Below, one piece after another: positions 14,960 through 27,828 of a stretch of DNA of 34,560 bases (positions within the stretch are counted from its first letter, which is position 1; each line of letters starts with the position of its first letter). The notes beneath the pieces are model-generated. The model had not been told where the DNA came from, searched no databases, and saw only the letters and a program-made list of their open reading frames with translations. The stretch spans positions 1-34,560 of IMG/VR virus record IMGVR_UViG_3300024354_000042; one strand, written 5' to 3'. Source of the stretch: a virus. The translations under genes were made by a program, and so were the position numbers.

Positions 14960-15463
14960 ATGGCGTTCGTACTTGCTGATCGTGTCCGTGAGACCACGAC
15001 GACTACGGGTACGGGCACCGTCACCCTTGGTGGAGCCGCGACCGGCTTCCAAACCTTCGCTGCGATTGGCAACGGCAACTCGACCTACTACACCATCGCG
15101 GGTCAAGGCACGAACGAATGGGAAGTGGGTATTGGTACCTACACTTCCAGCGGCACTACGCTCTCACGCGACACGGTGCTCTCATCGTCCAACAGCGGCT
15201 CGCTTGTTAACTTCTCGTCTGGCACAAAGGACGTGTTTGTAACGCAGCCTGCTGGACGCACTGTGTATGTGGGCGCAAGCAACCAAACGATCTACGGCGC
15301 AAACAACGCGCAAGGTAACGGCGGCTTGCTTGTGAACGCTGACCTCATCAGCAACAACTACACATTGCCGTCTGGGTTTAACGCACTGTCTGTCGGCCCC
15401 GTTTCTGTGGCTAGCGGCGTGACGGTTACTGTTACCAGCGGCCAAAACTGGGTGACCATCTAA
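14960..15463 (+). CDS. Fibre-associated beta protein
   Basis: A 167-residue protein. FVLADRVRETTTTTGTGTVT, then FQTFAAIGNGNSTYYTIAGQ, EWEVGIGTYTSSGTTLSRDT and KDVFVTQPAGRTVYVG form a pattern I know as an N-terminal fibre or virion-attachment domain in environmental phages. Here it is a stand-alone gene followed by a Ser/Thr/Val beta tail. It is probably an adaptor that binds the fibres downstream or a short fibre itself. The stop codon overlaps the next ATG (TAATG). Confidence 0.7.
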   Translation: MAFVLADRVRETTTTTGTGTVTLGGAATGFQTFAAIGNGNSTYYTIAGQGTNEWEVGIGTYTSSGTTLSRDTVLSSSNSGSLVNFSSGTKDVFVTQPAGRTVYVGASNQTIYGANNAQGNGGLLVNADLISNNYTLPSGFNALSVGPVSVASGVTVTVTSGQNWVTI

Positions 15464-17202
15464 TGTCTACGATCAGCGCATCAACCACATCAACAACCGC
15501 GTTCAAGATCACGACGGACACCACAGGTGCGCTTGTCTTCCAGACAGGTGCTTCGCCAACTACGGCTGTAACGATTGATGCCTCGCAGAATGTGGGTATT
15601 GGTACATCAAGCCCTGCAACACCTTTACACATATATGCAAGCACACAAGAGCAGGTTCGTTTGGGGCGCAATTCAACCGCTAGCTCTGCCTATTTAACAT
15701 TTTTTGCAAACAACGCGTCTTCTGCGCAAGTGCAGTACGCTGGCATCTTGGGCGATGTTGTTTCATCAACTGCGGGTTCTCATGGCGGCGCATTACTGTT
15801 CTATACAACAGGCTCGGGCACATCTGCAGAACGCGCCCGTATCAACTCCAACGGTAACTTTGGTATTGGAACAACGTCACCAAACAGAATTGGTTTTGAT
15901 TCAAATGCTCGCGTACTGACCACTTACGGCCCCCAGCGAGGCTTTCTTGAGCTGGGAAGCGATGCGGCAATCAACAACGACATTCTTGGCGGCCTTTGTT
16001 TTGTCTCGTCCACAACAAATAAAGGGTATATCTACTGCCAACTGGACGGCAGTGCGAACGGTAGTTTATCGTTCGGAACCAACAATACAGAACGAATGCG
16101 CCTTGACGCTTCTGGCAACCTTGGCCTTGGTGTTACACCTAGTGCTTGGGGCGGGTCGGTATTCAAAGTATTTCAGCTTGGTGGGGGCGGAGGTAACTTA
16201 TCCGCTGTTAGCGCTGGGGGTGACGAGCAAATTCAACTTGTGTCCAACGCTTACTACGACGGTTCTGCATACAAGTATGTGGTTTCCGCGCATTCAAGCA
16301 GATACATTCAAAATAACAGTACCCACATTTGGGATATTGCAGGCTCAGGCACGGCAGGTGGAACAATCACATACACCTCAGCAATGACGCTTGATGCTAG
16401 TGGGAATTTGGGTGTTGGCACTACAAGCATTAATGCAAAATTAGTGGTTTATCAAAATAGCGGTGATTCTGTCCCTATGCGTGTCAGATCGCCTAGTAGC
16501 ACAACAGGTTCAACAATTGGCTACTCTGACGGCAACAGCACCAATGATTATGCAGTTCGTGCGGGAGCAATTGGGACTTCGTTTGGAATGTGGACTGCTG
16601 ACACAGAACGCGCCCGTATCGACTCCAGCGGTAACGTGCTGGTGAACATGACATCTGCGCCTATTAACTCTTCAAGGGGGCTGTATGTTGGCGGTTTGAT
16701 TTCTCCTACCAGTAACTTCTCGCCTTCTTCAAATATTGGTGGCCAAATTGCTTTTGCTGGCGCGCAAGGGTCCCCAGTGTGCGGTCGTGTGTATATGGGT
16801 GACAACACTGGATGGCAGTGGGAGTGGGGTCCTTACGGCGGTAGTGGCTGGGTTCGTCGTTTTTACTTTACAGACCAAGGCGCAGCTTACAGCACCACGG
16901 GCACATGGGGTACGATTTCTGATGCGACCCTGAAAGAAAACATTACTGACGCAACCCCCAAGTTGGCTGAGTTGATGCAACTGCGCGTGCGCAACTTCAA
17001 CTTTATTTCAGAGCCCGGCGTCAAGCAGCTTGGTTTTGTTGCGCAAGAAGTCGAACAGATTTTCCCTCGTTTGGTTGACACCACACGCCCAGACGAAAAT
17101 GGCAACTCAACCAAAGCAGTCAAAACAACCGTGTTGATACCAATGCTCGTCAAAGCCATACAAGAACTCAACGAACGCCTTGAAGCACTGGAGGCTAAAT
17201 AA
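15463..17202 (+). CDS. Tail fibre with C-terminal S74 intramolecular chaperone
   Basis: A 579-residue fibre. Five collar-type repeats of the form (I/L)(D/N)xSGNxGxGTTS start near residues 38, 127, 214, 310 and 386. The C-terminus is a Peptidase_S74 chaperone. ISDATLKENI carries S486 and K491 at the S/K spacing of the endosialidase autocleavage dyad, followed by RVRNFNF, QLGFVAQEVEQIFP and a helical tail IQELNERLEALEA. In that family the trimeric chaperone folds the fibre and then cuts itself off before the Ser, here leaving 485 residues. The chaperone domain is intact. It starts in a TAATG overlap and ends in one. Confidence 0.9.
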   Translation: MSTISASTTSTTAFKITTDTTGALVFQTGASPTTAVTIDASQNVGIGTSSPATPLHIYASTQEQVRLGRNSTASSAYLTFFANNASSAQVQYAGILGDVVSSTAGSHGGALLFYTTGSGTSAERARINSNGNFGIGTTSPNRIGFDSNARVLTTYGPQRGFLELGSDAAINNDILGGLCFVSSTTNKGYIYCQLDGSANGSLSFGTNNTERMRLDASGNLGLGVTPSAWGGSVFKVFQLGGGGGNLSAVSAGGDEQIQLVSNAYYDGSAYKYVVSAHSSRYIQNNSTHIWDIAGSGTAGGTITYTSAMTLDASGNLGVGTTSINAKLVVYQNSGDSVPMRVRSPSSTTGSTIGYSDGNSTNDYAVRAGAIGTSFGMWTADTERARIDSSGNVLVNMTSAPINSSRGLYVGGLISPTSNFSPSSNIGGQIAFAGAQGSPVCGRVYMGDNTGWQWEWGPYGGSGWVRRFYFTDQGAAYSTTGTWGTISDATLKENITDATPKLAELMQLRVRNFNFISEPGVKQLGFVAQEVEQIFPRLVDTTRPDENGNSTKAVKTTVLIPMLVKAIQELNERLEALEAK

Positions 17203-20192: not shown

Positions 20193-20537
20193 ATGTCAGC
20201 AACAATCACTTGGGTCATCGAATGGATGAACGCATACCCCCAGTACGACGGTCAGACCGACGTTGTTATTTCAGCCGGTTGGCGATGCAACGGCGAGCAA
20301 GTTGAGGGCGACAACACCTACAACGGTAGCGTGTATAGCTCTGCTTCATTTACACTTGACCCCGAACAGCCGTTTACCCCTTACGCAGACTTGACACAAG
20401 AGCAGGTTCTGGGATGGGTGTGGGCGTCAGGTGTAGACCAAGCTGCTACTGAGGCCGCTGTTCAGCAGCAAATCGACAATCAAATCAATCCGCCCATCGT
20501 GCAGCCACCGCTGCCTTGGGTGACACCACAGGAGTAA
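20193..20537 (+). CDS. Fibre-adjacent conserved protein (YPQxDGQTDVV family)
   Basis: A 114-residue protein with EWMNAYPQYDGQTDVVISAG, then WRCNGEQVEGDNTYNGSVY, PYADLTQEQVLGWVWASGVD and a Pro-rich end PPIVQPPLPWV. This family recurs beside fibre and tail genes in environmental phages and some prophages, and I know of no tested role. The N-terminal beta part plus the acidic, helical part could fit a fibre-assembly factor. The start has AAAGGA upstream, and the next gene follows after two bases. Confidence 0.75.
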   Translation: MSATITWVIEWMNAYPQYDGQTDVVISAGWRCNGEQVEGDNTYNGSVYSSASFTLDPEQPFTPYADLTQEQVLGWVWASGVDQAATEAAVQQQIDNQINPPIVQPPLPWVTPQE

Positions 20538-20539
20538 AC

Positions 20540-20695
20540 ATGAAAGAAATCACACTGCCTATCGACTTGGCCAACGCTGTCTTGGGCTACCTCGGCAAAC
20601 AGCCATACGATCAAGTGTTCCAACTGATTCAGGGTATGCAGCAGGCTGCGCAACAACAGCAACAAGCACAGCCCACAGACGTTATCACTGAGTAA
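20540..20695 (+). CDS. 51-residue helical mini-protein
   Basis: It reads KEITLPIDLANAVLGYLGKQ, then PYDQVFQLIQGMQQAAQQQQ and a short polar tail. GGAG stands 5 bases before the ATG. The LANAVLGYLGKQPYDQV core recurs in aquatic phages next to the previous family. It is a likely two-helix protein, perhaps a tail-fibre co-factor. The stop codon overlaps the next ATG (TAATG). Confidence 0.65.
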   Translation: MKEITLPIDLANAVLGYLGKQPYDQVFQLIQGMQQAAQQQQQAQPTDVITE

Positions 20696-21477
20696 TGTTT
20701 GGCATATCAGCTTACGCCCAGTCCCCCTACGCTAGTCTAGGGGGATCGTCTTTTGTATCGGCTATTGCCGAGGGCGTAACTGCGTCTGATGTCGCCTCTG
20801 CGCAGGCGGCGTTTCTTTCCTCCATCGCTGAAATAGCCACCGGCAACGATCTGGTCTACCCCAACGTAGCCTTCGTCAGCCAAATCTTTGAGAGCATTAC
20901 TGGTGCAGACAGCGTTTCAACGCTGACCAACTTCTCAACAGCCATCAGCGAATTAGCCACCGGTGCCGACACGGTTGCCACGGCGCAAACATTCGCTACC
21001 CAGATTTCTGAAACAGCTCAAGTCTACGAAGCGGCATACGCTGGCGTGGCGTTTATTGGCCAAATTTCCGAGCTGGCTACAGGCACAGACCTGTACACCC
21101 CCGCAGGCGCATACTTTGTCACAGTGCCCGAGACATCCACAGCCGCAGACTTCGTGTACCCTACTGTTAACTTTGTGGGGCAGATCGCCGAGTCCATCAC
21201 AGGCACAGACACCACGGCCACATCCGCCAACTTTGCCGTCTCAGTTTCTGAGGTTGCCGCAGCCCTTGATACGCTCGTTGCGCAAGCTGCTTTTCTTGCC
21301 TCGGTATCTGAATCAGGCGTTGGTGCAGACACCATCCTTGGCGCGTTCCTGTGGAACATTATCAATGACAGCCAGACTGCAAACTGGCAAAATATCAATG
21401 ACGCCCAGACCCCCGGCTGGCAGACCATCAACGACGCCCAGAGCACGAACTGGAACGTCATCAAGACTCAAACTTAA
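20695..21477 (+). CDS. Fibre-like protein of ten 20-residue repeats
   Basis: A 260-residue protein. After a recurrent N-terminus (FGISAYAQSPYASLGG), residues 20-219 are ten repeats of exactly 20 residues, without any gap, of the form FxxxIxExxTGxDxxxxxxx (for example FIGQISELATGTDLYTPAGA). Then residues 220-260 hold three and a half 11-residue repeats WxxINDxQxxx (WQNINDAQTPG, WQTINDAQSTN). The regular period suggests a beta-solenoid or a trimeric beta-shaft. It sits among fibre genes, so a host-recognition or neck-fibre role is likely. It is coupled by TAATG to the gene before it. Confidence 0.8.
   Translation: MFGISAYAQSPYASLGGSSFVSAIAEGVTASDVASAQAAFLSSIAEIATGNDLVYPNVAFVSQIFESITGADSVSTLTNFSTAISELATGADTVATAQTFATQISETAQVYEAAYAGVAFIGQISELATGTDLYTPAGAYFVTVPETSTAADFVYPTVNFVGQIAESITGTDTTATSANFAVSVSEVAAALDTLVAQAAFLASVSESGVGADTILGAFLWNIINDSQTANWQNINDAQTPGWQTINDAQSTNWNVIKTQT
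20752..21351 (+). repeat. Ten tandem 60-bp units encoding a 20-residue repeat
   Basis: Each unit codes for F-x3-I-x-E-x2-T-G-x-D-x7. The DNA is well diverged while the period and the Phe, Glu and Asp positions are kept, which points to selection on protein structure rather than recent expansion. Units 5, 7 and 9 have lost part of the TGxD motif. Confidence 0.85.
21352..21474 (+). repeat. Three and a half 33-bp units encoding WxxINDxQxxx
   Basis: The units are WNIINDSQTAN, WQNINDAQTPG, WQTINDAQSTN and a partial WNVIKTQT. The Trp and the IND core are fixed. They form the C-terminus of the 20-residue repeat protein and probably a different, tightly turned structure. Confidence 0.85.
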
Positions 21478-21486
21478 GGACGCAAA

Positions 21487-22824
21487 ATGCCTAGTTCCTA
21501 CAACAACGCCCTACGCTTAGAGATGATCGGCACCGGTGAACAAGCCGGTATTTGGGGCGAGACGACCAACAACAACCTTGGTACTCTGCTCGTAGACGCA
21601 GTAGCGGGCTACACCTCAGTTTCAATCACAAGCTCAAGCCAAGCGCTGACGGCTATTGATGGTTTGGAAGATCAGTCACGCAACGCCATGATTGCGTTAA
21701 CCACGGTGACTTCTGCCAACTTCTCGGTGTTCATCCCCGCGTCGTCTAAGTCGTACATCTTTTACAACGCCACTTCTTATGTGGCGACAATTTACAACTC
21801 GACCGTTACTGGAAACACAACTGCTGCGGGTACCGGCGTAGCCATCCCTGCGGGCAAAGTCATGGCAGTGTGGAGCGAAGGCACAAACGTCGCCCAGCAA
21901 AACACACATCTAAATTCGCCATCGTTCACAACTCCTGCGCTGGGTACTCCCGCTTCCGGCACTTTGACCAATGCTACCGGCTTGCCAATTTCCACGGGTG
22001 TGTCTGGTTTGGGCGCTAACGTGGCTACATTCTTGGCTACACCATCAAGCGCTAACTTGGCCGCCGCGCTGACCGACGAAACCGGCACGGGCGCAAACGT
22101 GTTTGCCAACAGCCCCACATTGGTGACTCCCGCTTTGGGCACGCCCTCTTCGGTCACATTAACAAACGCTACTGGCTTGCCTATTGACGGCGGCACTACT
22201 GGAACTTTGCCTGTTCTTCGCGGTGGCACGGGCGTAACGACTTCTACTGGTTCAGGCAGCAATGTGCTGTCTAATAGCCCTACCTTGGTTACACCTGCTT
22301 TGGGCACACCGTCGTCGGGCAACTTGGCCAACTGCACATTCCCGACCTTGAACCAGAACACAAGCGGTAACGCTGCTACAGCCACTGCGCCACAGTCCGG
22401 CGGTTCGTTCATTACAACGAGTAACATTGGCAGTCAATCGGTTAACTACGCAAACTATTCGGGCTATACAACAGGCAATGCTGCCACCGCCACCAACGTG
22501 GCGTGGAGTGGTGTAACAAGCAAACCAACGCTTTTGTACCGCAACTATTCTGGTTCGGTGACTGGTTCAATCAACAGCTCTTCTGCCGCAGCAACCGATA
22601 CCATCGTCATTACAACAGGCGGCACTCTGGGCGTTCCAGAGGTTGCTTTTGACTACTGGGTTTGGTGGGGTTCATCATCGGTGCCCGGTGAGTTCTACAT
22701 TACTTCTTGCCGAAGAAGAATCACCGCCATTTCTGGCGGTACAAACCAAACCGTCGTGGATGTCTACCATATTGCAAACGGTGGCCCGCACGCACTCACA
22801 GCCTATATTTGGCAAGGAGGTTAA
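21487..22824 (+). CDS. Modular tail fibre protein
   Basis: A 445-residue fibre. The N-terminus ALRLEMIGTGEQAGIWGETT, then NNNLGTLLVDAVAGY, is a very common fibre-attachment domain. The middle contains three copies of a SPTLVTPALGTPSS-type repeat (about residues 144-170, 208-233 and 263-290), with the LTNATGLPI extension in the first two, plus GNAATAT linkers. The end is a Trp/Tyr-rich beta domain (VAFDYWVWWGSSSVPGEFYI, ALTAYIWQGG) that may bind receptor. No chaperone domain is present. AAGGAC lies upstream of the ATG. Confidence 0.8.
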   Translation: MPSSYNNALRLEMIGTGEQAGIWGETTNNNLGTLLVDAVAGYTSVSITSSSQALTAIDGLEDQSRNAMIALTTVTSANFSVFIPASSKSYIFYNATSYVATIYNSTVTGNTTAAGTGVAIPAGKVMAVWSEGTNVAQQNTHLNSPSFTTPALGTPASGTLTNATGLPISTGVSGLGANVATFLATPSSANLAAALTDETGTGANVFANSPTLVTPALGTPSSVTLTNATGLPIDGGTTGTLPVLRGGTGVTTSTGSGSNVLSNSPTLVTPALGTPSSGNLANCTFPTLNQNTSGNAATATAPQSGGSFITTSNIGSQSVNYANYSGYTTGNAATATNVAWSGVTSKPTLLYRNYSGSVTGSINSSSAAATDTIVITTGGTLGVPEVAFDYWVWWGSSSVPGEFYITSCRRRITAISGGTNQTVVDVYHIANGGPHALTAYIWQGG

Positions 22825-25608: not shown

Positions 25609-27828
25609 ATGCCGTTACAAAAACTTCAATTCCGCCCCGGTGTCAACCGCGAAGGTACAACTCTAGCCAACGAGGGGGGCTGGTTCGAGTGCGACAAGAT
25701 TCGCTTTCGTTCGGGCTTTCCCGAGAAGTTAGGCGGCTGGATTCTTGATACTGGCACATATTACCCAACTGCCCCTATAGGCACACTCGTGGCAAGCGGC
25801 ACAGAAATATCGGCGACTCCCCCAGCTGGCGCATATTGGGGCGTGTGTCGTTCGATGTGGAATTGGTATTCGTTGGCTGGCAACAACTATTTGGGCATGG
25901 GCACGAACTTGAAGTTCTACATCCAAAACGGCCCTAACGGTTATTTTTATGATGTCACACCTATTCGGGATACAAACACAACTTCGGCTGGCACTGCGTT
26001 TACAACGGTCAATACTTCCACCACCGTGACTGTCAACGACCCCGGGCACGGTGCGCAGACTGGTGACTTTGTGATGATCTCTGGTGTGGGCGGCGCTGTT
26101 AACGGCATTCCCGCTTCCGCGCTCAATCGCGAATTCCAGATAACATACCTGAACGGTAACCAATACAACATCACCGTTAGCGCCCCCGCTACATCGACTG
26201 CCACTGCGGGCACTGCCACTTTGACCTATCAAATTACATCAGGTTCGGCTACATATACTGTGGCTACTGGTTGGGGCGCTGGTACTTGGGGCGGCACTAC
26301 AGCGGGTTCTATCACAACCACTTTGAATGGTTCGATCAACTCTAGCGCCACCTCTATCACATTGACATCCGCAGCATCCTTTACTGCGTCTGGCACGATT
26401 GTTATTGATACCGAGTCCATCACATATTCCGGCAAATCAACAAACACACTGACTGGCTGCGTGCGCGGTGCAAACGGTACGACTGCCGCAGCTCACACTT
26501 CCGGCGCTACCGTCACTCAAGTCGCTTCTTCTTGGACCGGCTGGGGTCAGGCTGCTGCGACGGGCGTGGGTATTCAACTACGTATTTGGAGCCAATCAAA
26601 CTACGGTGAGGACTTGATCTTCAACCCCCGTGGCGGCGCGCTGTATTACTGGTCGGTGAACGCTAACCCCAACGTATTTGATCGTGGTGTGGTTATGCAA
26701 GCGGGCACAACTGTTAATGGCGCACTCATGGATAGCACATCGCCATCAGTTGCTAACTTAGTCATGGTGTCTGACTCATCGCGTTTTGTGATTTGTTTTG
26801 GTACCAATGACCCATCGGGCGTTTTGTTTTCAGCAACCCAAGACCCACTGCTTATTCGTTGGTCGCAACAAGAAGAGTTCTACACATGGACACCTTCAGC
26901 AACGAACCAAGCAGGTGATTACCGACTGAGCCGTGGTTCCGAGATTGTTGCCGCACAGCAAACCCGTCAGGAAATCTTGGTGTGGACTGATGCCGCTTTG
27001 TATTCTATGCAGTACCTCGGCCCCCCATACGTTTGGGGCTTCCAGATCATGGGCGACAACCTGTCTATTGCTGGGCCAAACGTGGTGTCTGTGGCGAACA
27101 ACGTGACCTACTGGATGGGCACCGACAAGTTCTATATGTATTCAGGTCGTGTGGAAACACTGCCATGCACCTTGCGTCAGTATGTCTTCCAAGACATCAA
27201 CATGCTTCAGTCGTATCAATTCTTCTCTAGCACCAACGAAGGCTACAACGAGATTTGGTGGTTCTACTGCTCGGCCAACAGCAACACAATCGACAAGTAC
27301 GTGGTGTTCAACCACCTTGAACGCACTTGGTATTACGGCACGATGGCGCGCACTGCTTGGCTTGACAGCCCCCTGCGTACTGTCCCCATGGCTGCCGGTT
27401 ACAACGGCCAATTGATTTACCACGAGACAGGCAACGACGATGGCACCACAACACCCGTTTCGCCGATTGAAGCGTATTGCCAATCTTCTGACTTTGATAT
27501 TGGTGACGGACACAACTTCGGTATTGTGTGGCGCATTATTCCTGATGTGACCTTTGACGGGTCAGATACCGCAAGTCCGTCATTAGACTTCACTGTTCGT
27601 CCACGCCAAAACCCCGGCACAAACTACGGTAGTTCTGACAGCCCGACGATCACCAGCGGTAATAACTACTCAGGCCAACGCACATACAACGTGCAGCAGT
27701 TCACAGAGTACGCCTATGTGCGTATCCGTGGTCGTCAGATGGCATTCAAAATTAGTTCCAATGACCTTGGTGTTGCTTGGCAGCTCGGTACGCCGCGCCT
27801 TGATGTGCGCCCAGATGGACGACGCTAA
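25609..27828 (+). CDS. P22 gp10-like nozzle/tail stabilisation protein
   Basis: A 739-residue protein. The N-terminus FRPGVNREGTTLANEGGWFE and CDKIRFRSGFPEKLGGW and the C-terminus LGVAWQLGTPRLDVRPDGRR are characteristic of the gp10-like family, which forms a beta-propeller nozzle at the end of a short tail. Repeated blades appear around SRGSEIVAAQQTRQEILVWT and ALYSMQYLGPPYVWGFQIMG. Two beta domains are inserted, at about residues 130-210 (PGHGAQTGDFVMISGVGG) and about 237-305 (the shared CVRGANGTTAAAH module). It ends in a TAATG overlap. It supports a podovirus-type tail. Confidence 0.85.
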   Translation: MPLQKLQFRPGVNREGTTLANEGGWFECDKIRFRSGFPEKLGGWILDTGTYYPTAPIGTLVASGTEISATPPAGAYWGVCRSMWNWYSLAGNNYLGMGTNLKFYIQNGPNGYFYDVTPIRDTNTTSAGTAFTTVNTSTTVTVNDPGHGAQTGDFVMISGVGGAVNGIPASALNREFQITYLNGNQYNITVSAPATSTATAGTATLTYQITSGSATYTVATGWGAGTWGGTTAGSITTTLNGSINSSATSITLTSAASFTASGTIVIDTESITYSGKSTNTLTGCVRGANGTTAAAHTSGATVTQVASSWTGWGQAAATGVGIQLRIWSQSNYGEDLIFNPRGGALYYWSVNANPNVFDRGVVMQAGTTVNGALMDSTSPSVANLVMVSDSSRFVICFGTNDPSGVLFSATQDPLLIRWSQQEEFYTWTPSATNQAGDYRLSRGSEIVAAQQTRQEILVWTDAALYSMQYLGPPYVWGFQIMGDNLSIAGPNVVSVANNVTYWMGTDKFYMYSGRVETLPCTLRQYVFQDINMLQSYQFFSSTNEGYNEIWWFYCSANSNTIDKYVVFNHLERTWYYGTMARTAWLDSPLRTVPMAAGYNGQLIYHETGNDDGTTTPVSPIEAYCQSSDFDIGDGHNFGIVWRIIPDVTFDGSDTASPSLDFTVRPRQNPGTNYGSSDSPTITSGNNYSGQRTYNVQQFTEYAYVRIRGRQMAFKISSNDLGVAWQLGTPRLDVRPDGRR
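26317..26523 (+). repeat. Inserted beta domain, copy 2
   Basis: Encodes residues 237-305 of the nozzle protein. It has the same strand order and the CVRGANGTTAAAH signature as copy 1 at 11753-11956. The DNA copies are well diverged, so this is not a recent duplication within this genome. Confidence 0.7.

Follow-up and report, generated by a model that had tools for sequence, protein, structure and literature searches.

A candidate fibre gene with a 20-residue repeat shaft and conserved ends in aquatic phages

The stretch of DNA analysed here, hereafter the window, is a virus record of 34,560 bases that encodes terminase, portal, coat, tail-fibre and endolysin proteins. Its terminase shares 57% identity with that of the metagenome-assembled phage DSL-LC04, the closest annotated relative, and 54% with that of Pelagibacter phage HTVC027P. 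At 25609–27828 the window encodes a product of the 'stabilization protein' type, whose nearest solved relative, PDB 9nwi, is described as a head-to-tail adapter of Pseudomonas phage Pa223 (PMC13299392). On account of these relatives, we infer that the window derives from a P22-like podovirus.

The putative repeat-shaft fibre gene occupies positions 20695–21477 of the forward strand, where an ORF and its translation define a protein of 260 aa (plus stop codon) with a pI of about 4, rich in Ala, Ser and Thr and almost devoid of Lys and Arg. All three of its parts are read on the same strand. A 19-residue N-terminal cap (MFGISAYAQSPYASLGGSS; 20695–20751), conserved among relatives, is followed by a shaft of ten gap-free 20-residue units (20752–21351), defined by a periodicity test and with the family consensus FxxxVxExATGxDxVxAxxx. 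The C-terminal tail (21352–21474) has the form WxxINDxQTxN, with four Trp residues, one every 11 residues; the last shaft residues, FL, lie directly before the first Trp codon at 21352. The initial annotation had delimited the feature as 20752–21474, a span that contains the repeats but misses the cap, which on sequence comparison is among the most conserved parts of the protein. A second IMG/VR record (L001) encodes an identical 260-residue protein, so the gene is not an assembly artefact.

The gene is positioned within a tail-fibre block, with fibre-like neighbours in the window, in the IMG/VR relatives and in cultivated pelagiphages. Immediately upstream, the stop codon of a small 51 aa gene (MKEITLPIDLANAVLGYLGK...; 20540–20695, forward strand) overlaps the fibre ATG in the sequence TAATG. 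The same overlap is found in the related records L002 and L003, and suggests that the small gene and the fibre gene are translationally coupled. Downstream, at 21487–22824 on the forward strand, lies a fibre-like gene with a type A N-domain (MPSSYNNALRLEMIGTGEQAGIWGETTNNNL; phrog_31104), the product of which belongs to the same family as gp69 of phage HTVC023P, a 'putative tail protein' that additionally matches tail fibre families. Tail-fibre genes are also located on the 5' side of the repeat gene.

Other features of this neighbourhood were recorded. The upstream fibre block starts at 14960–15463 with the gene of a 'DRVRETTTTTGTG' (type B) domain. At 15463–17202 lies a tail fibre gene whose product ends in a Peptidase_S74 intramolecular chaperone domain (Pfam E 1.7e-12). 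The type B domain gene is upstream of the repeat gene in the window, and directly after it in the phages of the ALTGV class described below. A DUF7936 protein (Pfam E 3e-22) is encoded near the fibre gene at 20193–20537, and small proteins resembling it occupy the same neighbourhood in several relatives.

The shaft units begin at nucleotide 20752, and each measures exactly 60 nt with zero gaps. Column 7 is Glu in all ten units, column 1 is Phe in nine (Tyr once) and column 13 is Asp in nine (Glu once), in agreement with the earlier description of ten consecutive units with an exact 20-residue period and fixed Phe, Glu and Asp. Identities at a lag of 20 residues numbered 58 out of 180, whereas 3000 shuffles gave 17.7 on average (sd 3.8) and never more than 32, and identity at lags of 40 and 60 was likewise high. 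At the DNA level the units share a mean identity of 45% (range 37–58%), and Tandem Repeats Finder reported nothing for the unit DNA, even at a score of 30, which bears out the earlier view of a strict period carried by diverged DNA. This divergence argues that the array is old and that its period is held by selection at the protein level. The family consensus is a profile built from 322 distinct units of relatives; units were detected by a simple score and classes counted by regular expressions, making the unit and class counts given here approximate.

Scanning IMG/VR with the window protein returned at least 239 relatives, and scanning with an alignment returned at least 589 stretches encoding relatives; both are minimum numbers, and the relatives were not sampled at random. 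Among 84,980 bacterial and archaeal genomes (GTDB), a single contig matched, L159 of a betaproteobacterial MAG. A cellular origin of the gene was considered and rejected, given the phage-like neighbours on this sole contig.

The relatives follow a three-part plan of cap, shaft of quantised length and WxxINDxQ tail. The initial annotation had proposed counting units in related genomes, and their number does vary, E/D-class members having about 4 to 18 and ALTGV-class members up to about 26, with a unit spacing of 20, sometimes 21, residues. The distance from cap to tail is quantised by 20 residues (Rayleigh R of 0.92, 0.81 and 0.72 in the three main groups; the sequences are related and non-independent, so that the p-values of this test are too small). 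The closest relatives of the window protein differ by whole units, with ten in L001 and L002 and six in L004 and L005, while L003 has ten units plus two extra 11-residue units.

A DNA pattern for the cap only, applied to IMG/VR, selected 81 non-redundant complete proteins among the matches listed. A Trp tail was present in 77 of the 81; 52 contained an ALTGVxASGxVGTV repeat, with a period of 20 in nearly all, and 18 contained the E/D repeat. The two classes have the same period and the same ends, each keeps a constant register relative to the tail, and A-x-G at unit positions 9–11 is common to both. In most loci the repeat gene is directly upstream of a gene with a fibre-like N-domain, which for most E/D-class members is type A ('GxxxGxWGxTxN') and for nearly all ALTGV members type B ('DRVKETTTTTGTG').

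In some ALTGV-class proteins the lag-40 value exceeded the lag-20 value, which led us to consider a 40-residue structural repeat of two alternating unit types. This was rejected as a rule: lag 40 minus lag 20 was –0.040 for E/D-class proteins and –0.012 for ALTGV-class ones, and the profiles of odd and even units were much alike. A further shaft class, again between an MFG cap and a Trp tail, is built of units of the TGQSATSALG type, each about 22 residues long (L269, L255, L223 and L227), which resemble HTVC023P gp68. Two other proteins (L208 and L260) join an MFG cap to a different, 18-residue-like body that lacks the Trp tail.

Caps among the relatives are of two types, MFGxxAYAxxPYASLG or GWGSGTWG, and the window cap, MFGISAYAQSPYASLG, falls within this MFG or GWG definition of the cap/shaft/tail family. 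MFG-type caps share a mean pairwise identity of 60% (n=28, relatives fetched by protein similarity). At the other end of the window protein, Trp residues 220, 231, 242 and 253 are spaced by exact 11-residue steps to the end; the '3.5' Trp units first reported are a fair count of three full units and an 8-residue partial one. Pairwise identity of the Trp tail is 67% over 23 residues (96 relatives), in contrast to only 27% for the last 100 shaft residues. Across 157 non-redundant genes, tails with 4, 3, 6 and 2 Trp residues occur in 93, 36, 25 and 3 genes, respectively. None of the 157 has exactly five, which hints at a growth step of two units (22 residues).

The original description of a fibre-like protein made of two parts, each with its own period (20-residue shaft units and then 11-residue Trp steps), is thus sustained. 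The claim that these are two distinct elongated parts is borne out only in part: the tail comprises 2–6 steps and is the most conserved region, so that it looks less like a second shaft than like a terminal module. Conservation of the ends also argues against a fast-evolving receptor-binding tip at the C-terminus and for a module with a structural or docking role. We considered, and discarded, an interaction in which the Trp tail docks to the protein encoded next downstream, since tail sequence showed no correlation with neighbour type.

The GWGSGTWG module is also found after an MFG cap or within the shaft, sometimes several times, as in L170, L021, L026, L018, L078, L280:18919-19884 and L082:1150-2280. 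Such internal modules are possibly joints between shaft segments.

Within the unit, odd positions were more informative than even ones (p=0.002, at positions unused in unit selection). Alternation of conserved positions suggests extended beta strands, one face of which points inward and the other outward, and inward alternation with a turn-like ATGxD in each repeat is a pattern common to triple beta-spirals and solenoids. The AlphaFold2 monomer model of the window protein was all-beta, each unit contributing a single long strand and a turn close to TGx, at a mean pLDDT of 53.4; a C-terminal fragment modelled with 64 sequences gave a mean pLDDT of 49.7 and no such model. The solenoid or triple-stranded shaft suggested initially is therefore not established, as monomer prediction yielded no fold. 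A model of such low confidence is expected of an obligate oligomer, which it does not prove.

We considered whether the protein could be a monomeric beta-solenoid on the virion, with one coil per 20-residue unit and ladders of E7 and D13 perhaps holding divalent cations. The gap-free exact period, the inward and outward alternation and the conserved turn are as this reading predicts, as is the one strand per unit of the low-confidence all-beta model. However, AlphaFold2 reportedly assigns confident beta-solenoids too readily when given repeat sequences (PMC11795689), and the pLDDT here reached only 50–53; this is a mild argument against a simple monomeric solenoid, and not a proof. Two uncompensated inward acidic ladders in a protein with few Lys or Arg residues would, furthermore, be awkward in a closed single-chain core unless metal were bound. 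We regard a monomeric solenoid as possible but doubtful. The low pLDDT and the Ala/Ser/Thr-rich composition would also suit a disordered linker of low complexity that adopts no fold, yet the period, the F/V/E/G/D positions and the register to the tail are kept across about 100 non-redundant relatives, and we consider such a linker very unlikely.

Taken together, the exact period, the quantised length, the constant ends with a variable middle and the locus beside fibre-like genes lead us to propose that the protein is probably a fibre of the virion that most likely belongs to the tail adsorption apparatus of a P22-like podovirus, with a length set by the number of repeats. Constant ends around a middle of variable length would be the pattern of a ruler-like fibre. 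The cap would dock on the virion, and each unit would form an extended beta structure with one turn at ATGxD and its odd positions directed inward. By analogy with known fibres, the chain would more likely pack with two further copies than stand alone, giving a rigid acidic rod, which the Trp tail might register or close; alternatively, the tail may dock a partner that all these phages share. The number of repeats would then serve as a ruler that sets the distance of the outer end from the virion, and recombination may replace one shaft by another of different type and length between unchanging ends. The neighbouring fibre genes may be the ones responsible for receptor binding.

Some phages bear such fibres on the head, and head and tail virion genes of the window lie in one block, in which position alone is not decisive. 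A head fibre or capsid decoration of the same rod-like construction appears unlikely, however, given that the genes adjoining on both sides are tail-fibre-like and not head genes, and that the downstream neighbours in HTVC027P are annotated 'putative tail protein' and 'tail collar domain'.

The gene occurs in hundreds of mostly uncultivated aquatic phages and in some cultivated pelagiphages, where it is labelled 'hypothetical' and is missed by the libraries that we searched. Should the fibre assignment of the protein be confirmed, the gene would open the adsorption apparatus of these phages to study from sequence, and would provide a natural series of fibres, alike at both ends and differing by whole 20-residue units, in which fibre length could be compared with adsorption. 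The known kind represented here would be the phage fibre with a repeat shaft; what appears to be new is the family with cap, 20-residue shaft and Trp tail. More speculatively, these genes may constitute an undescribed large family of podovirus fibres of freshwater and marine bacteria, SAR11 phages included, with interchangeable shafts of the same period, constant docking ends, a ruler system and a beta-shaft fold absent from solved structures, a proposition that we find plausible rather than probable.

No credible match to the window protein or the relatives tested was found in Pfam, PHROGs or NCBIfam, where hits were sub-threshold or unrelated; phrog_12240, a family of no assigned function, matched two of 28 relatives. 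Two profiles, A1 and A2, matched no PDB sequence. The repeat thus matches no named family in these four resources, in line with the initial annotation, which could assign it to none. A direct search of 50,697 phage records gave only a partial match, in DSL-LC04 (OR003939; PMC10611076). The DSL-LC04 protein, WJZ48131.1 ('hypothetical protein'), has a Trp tail that directly matches that of the window protein (E 1e-4) and GWG caps, but a shaft of the VTGVQxxGxVG class.

Two cultivated relatives, gp68 of HTVC023P (QGZ17697.1) and gp68 of HTVC027P (QGZ17849.1), both annotated as hypothetical proteins, were found through terminase relatives and are recognized by architecture and position. Like the window gene, both lie just before a 'putative tail protein' gene with a type A N-domain, and both products have TG-type repeats and a Trp tail, with 11-residue Trp steps in HTVC023P. 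HTVC023P gp68 begins LLGITAISQSPIASLGG, compared with MFGISAYAQSPYASLGG in the window, an MFG-like cap with 11 of 17 residues in common; the HTVC027P cap is of the GWG type. Their shafts belong to another sequence class, with 22-residue units in HTVC023P and irregular ones in HTVC027P, and GWG modules are interspersed in HTVC027P gp68, unlike in the window protein. A possible, weaker relative is gp55 of Roseobacter phage CRP-345.

Curlin repeats (CsgA/CsgB) resemble the phage units in their length and presumed beta structure, and curli genes have been reported in HTVC023P-type pelagiphages (PMC9599517). A secreted amyloid-like or curli-like fibre outside the virion would accordingly share the repeat of about 20 residues and the beta-type pattern. 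Nevertheless, the Pfam curlin profile (PF07012) matched neither the protein nor 27 relatives, and the residues conserved in the phage units are F, V, E, G and D, where curlin has its Ser/Gln/Asn pattern. The N-terminus is not signal-like, the cap being a conserved short motif; the gene lies in the tail module, and no secretion gene was noticed among the window genes searched. We judge a curli-like fibre highly improbable.

The candidate phage fibre resembles in design the adenovirus fibre, a triple beta-spiral (PMC3386624, PMC8869412). Since the phage protein has no sequence match to a solved structure and its trimer is an analogy, we do not classify it as a triple beta-spiral protein. The shaft repeat differs, there is no sequence match, the virus class is another and the adenovirus knob contrasts with a Trp tail of 20–60 residues. 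What the two have in common is a similar plan, in which an N-terminal docking peptide, a rod of beta repeats and a constant C-terminal registration module follow one another.
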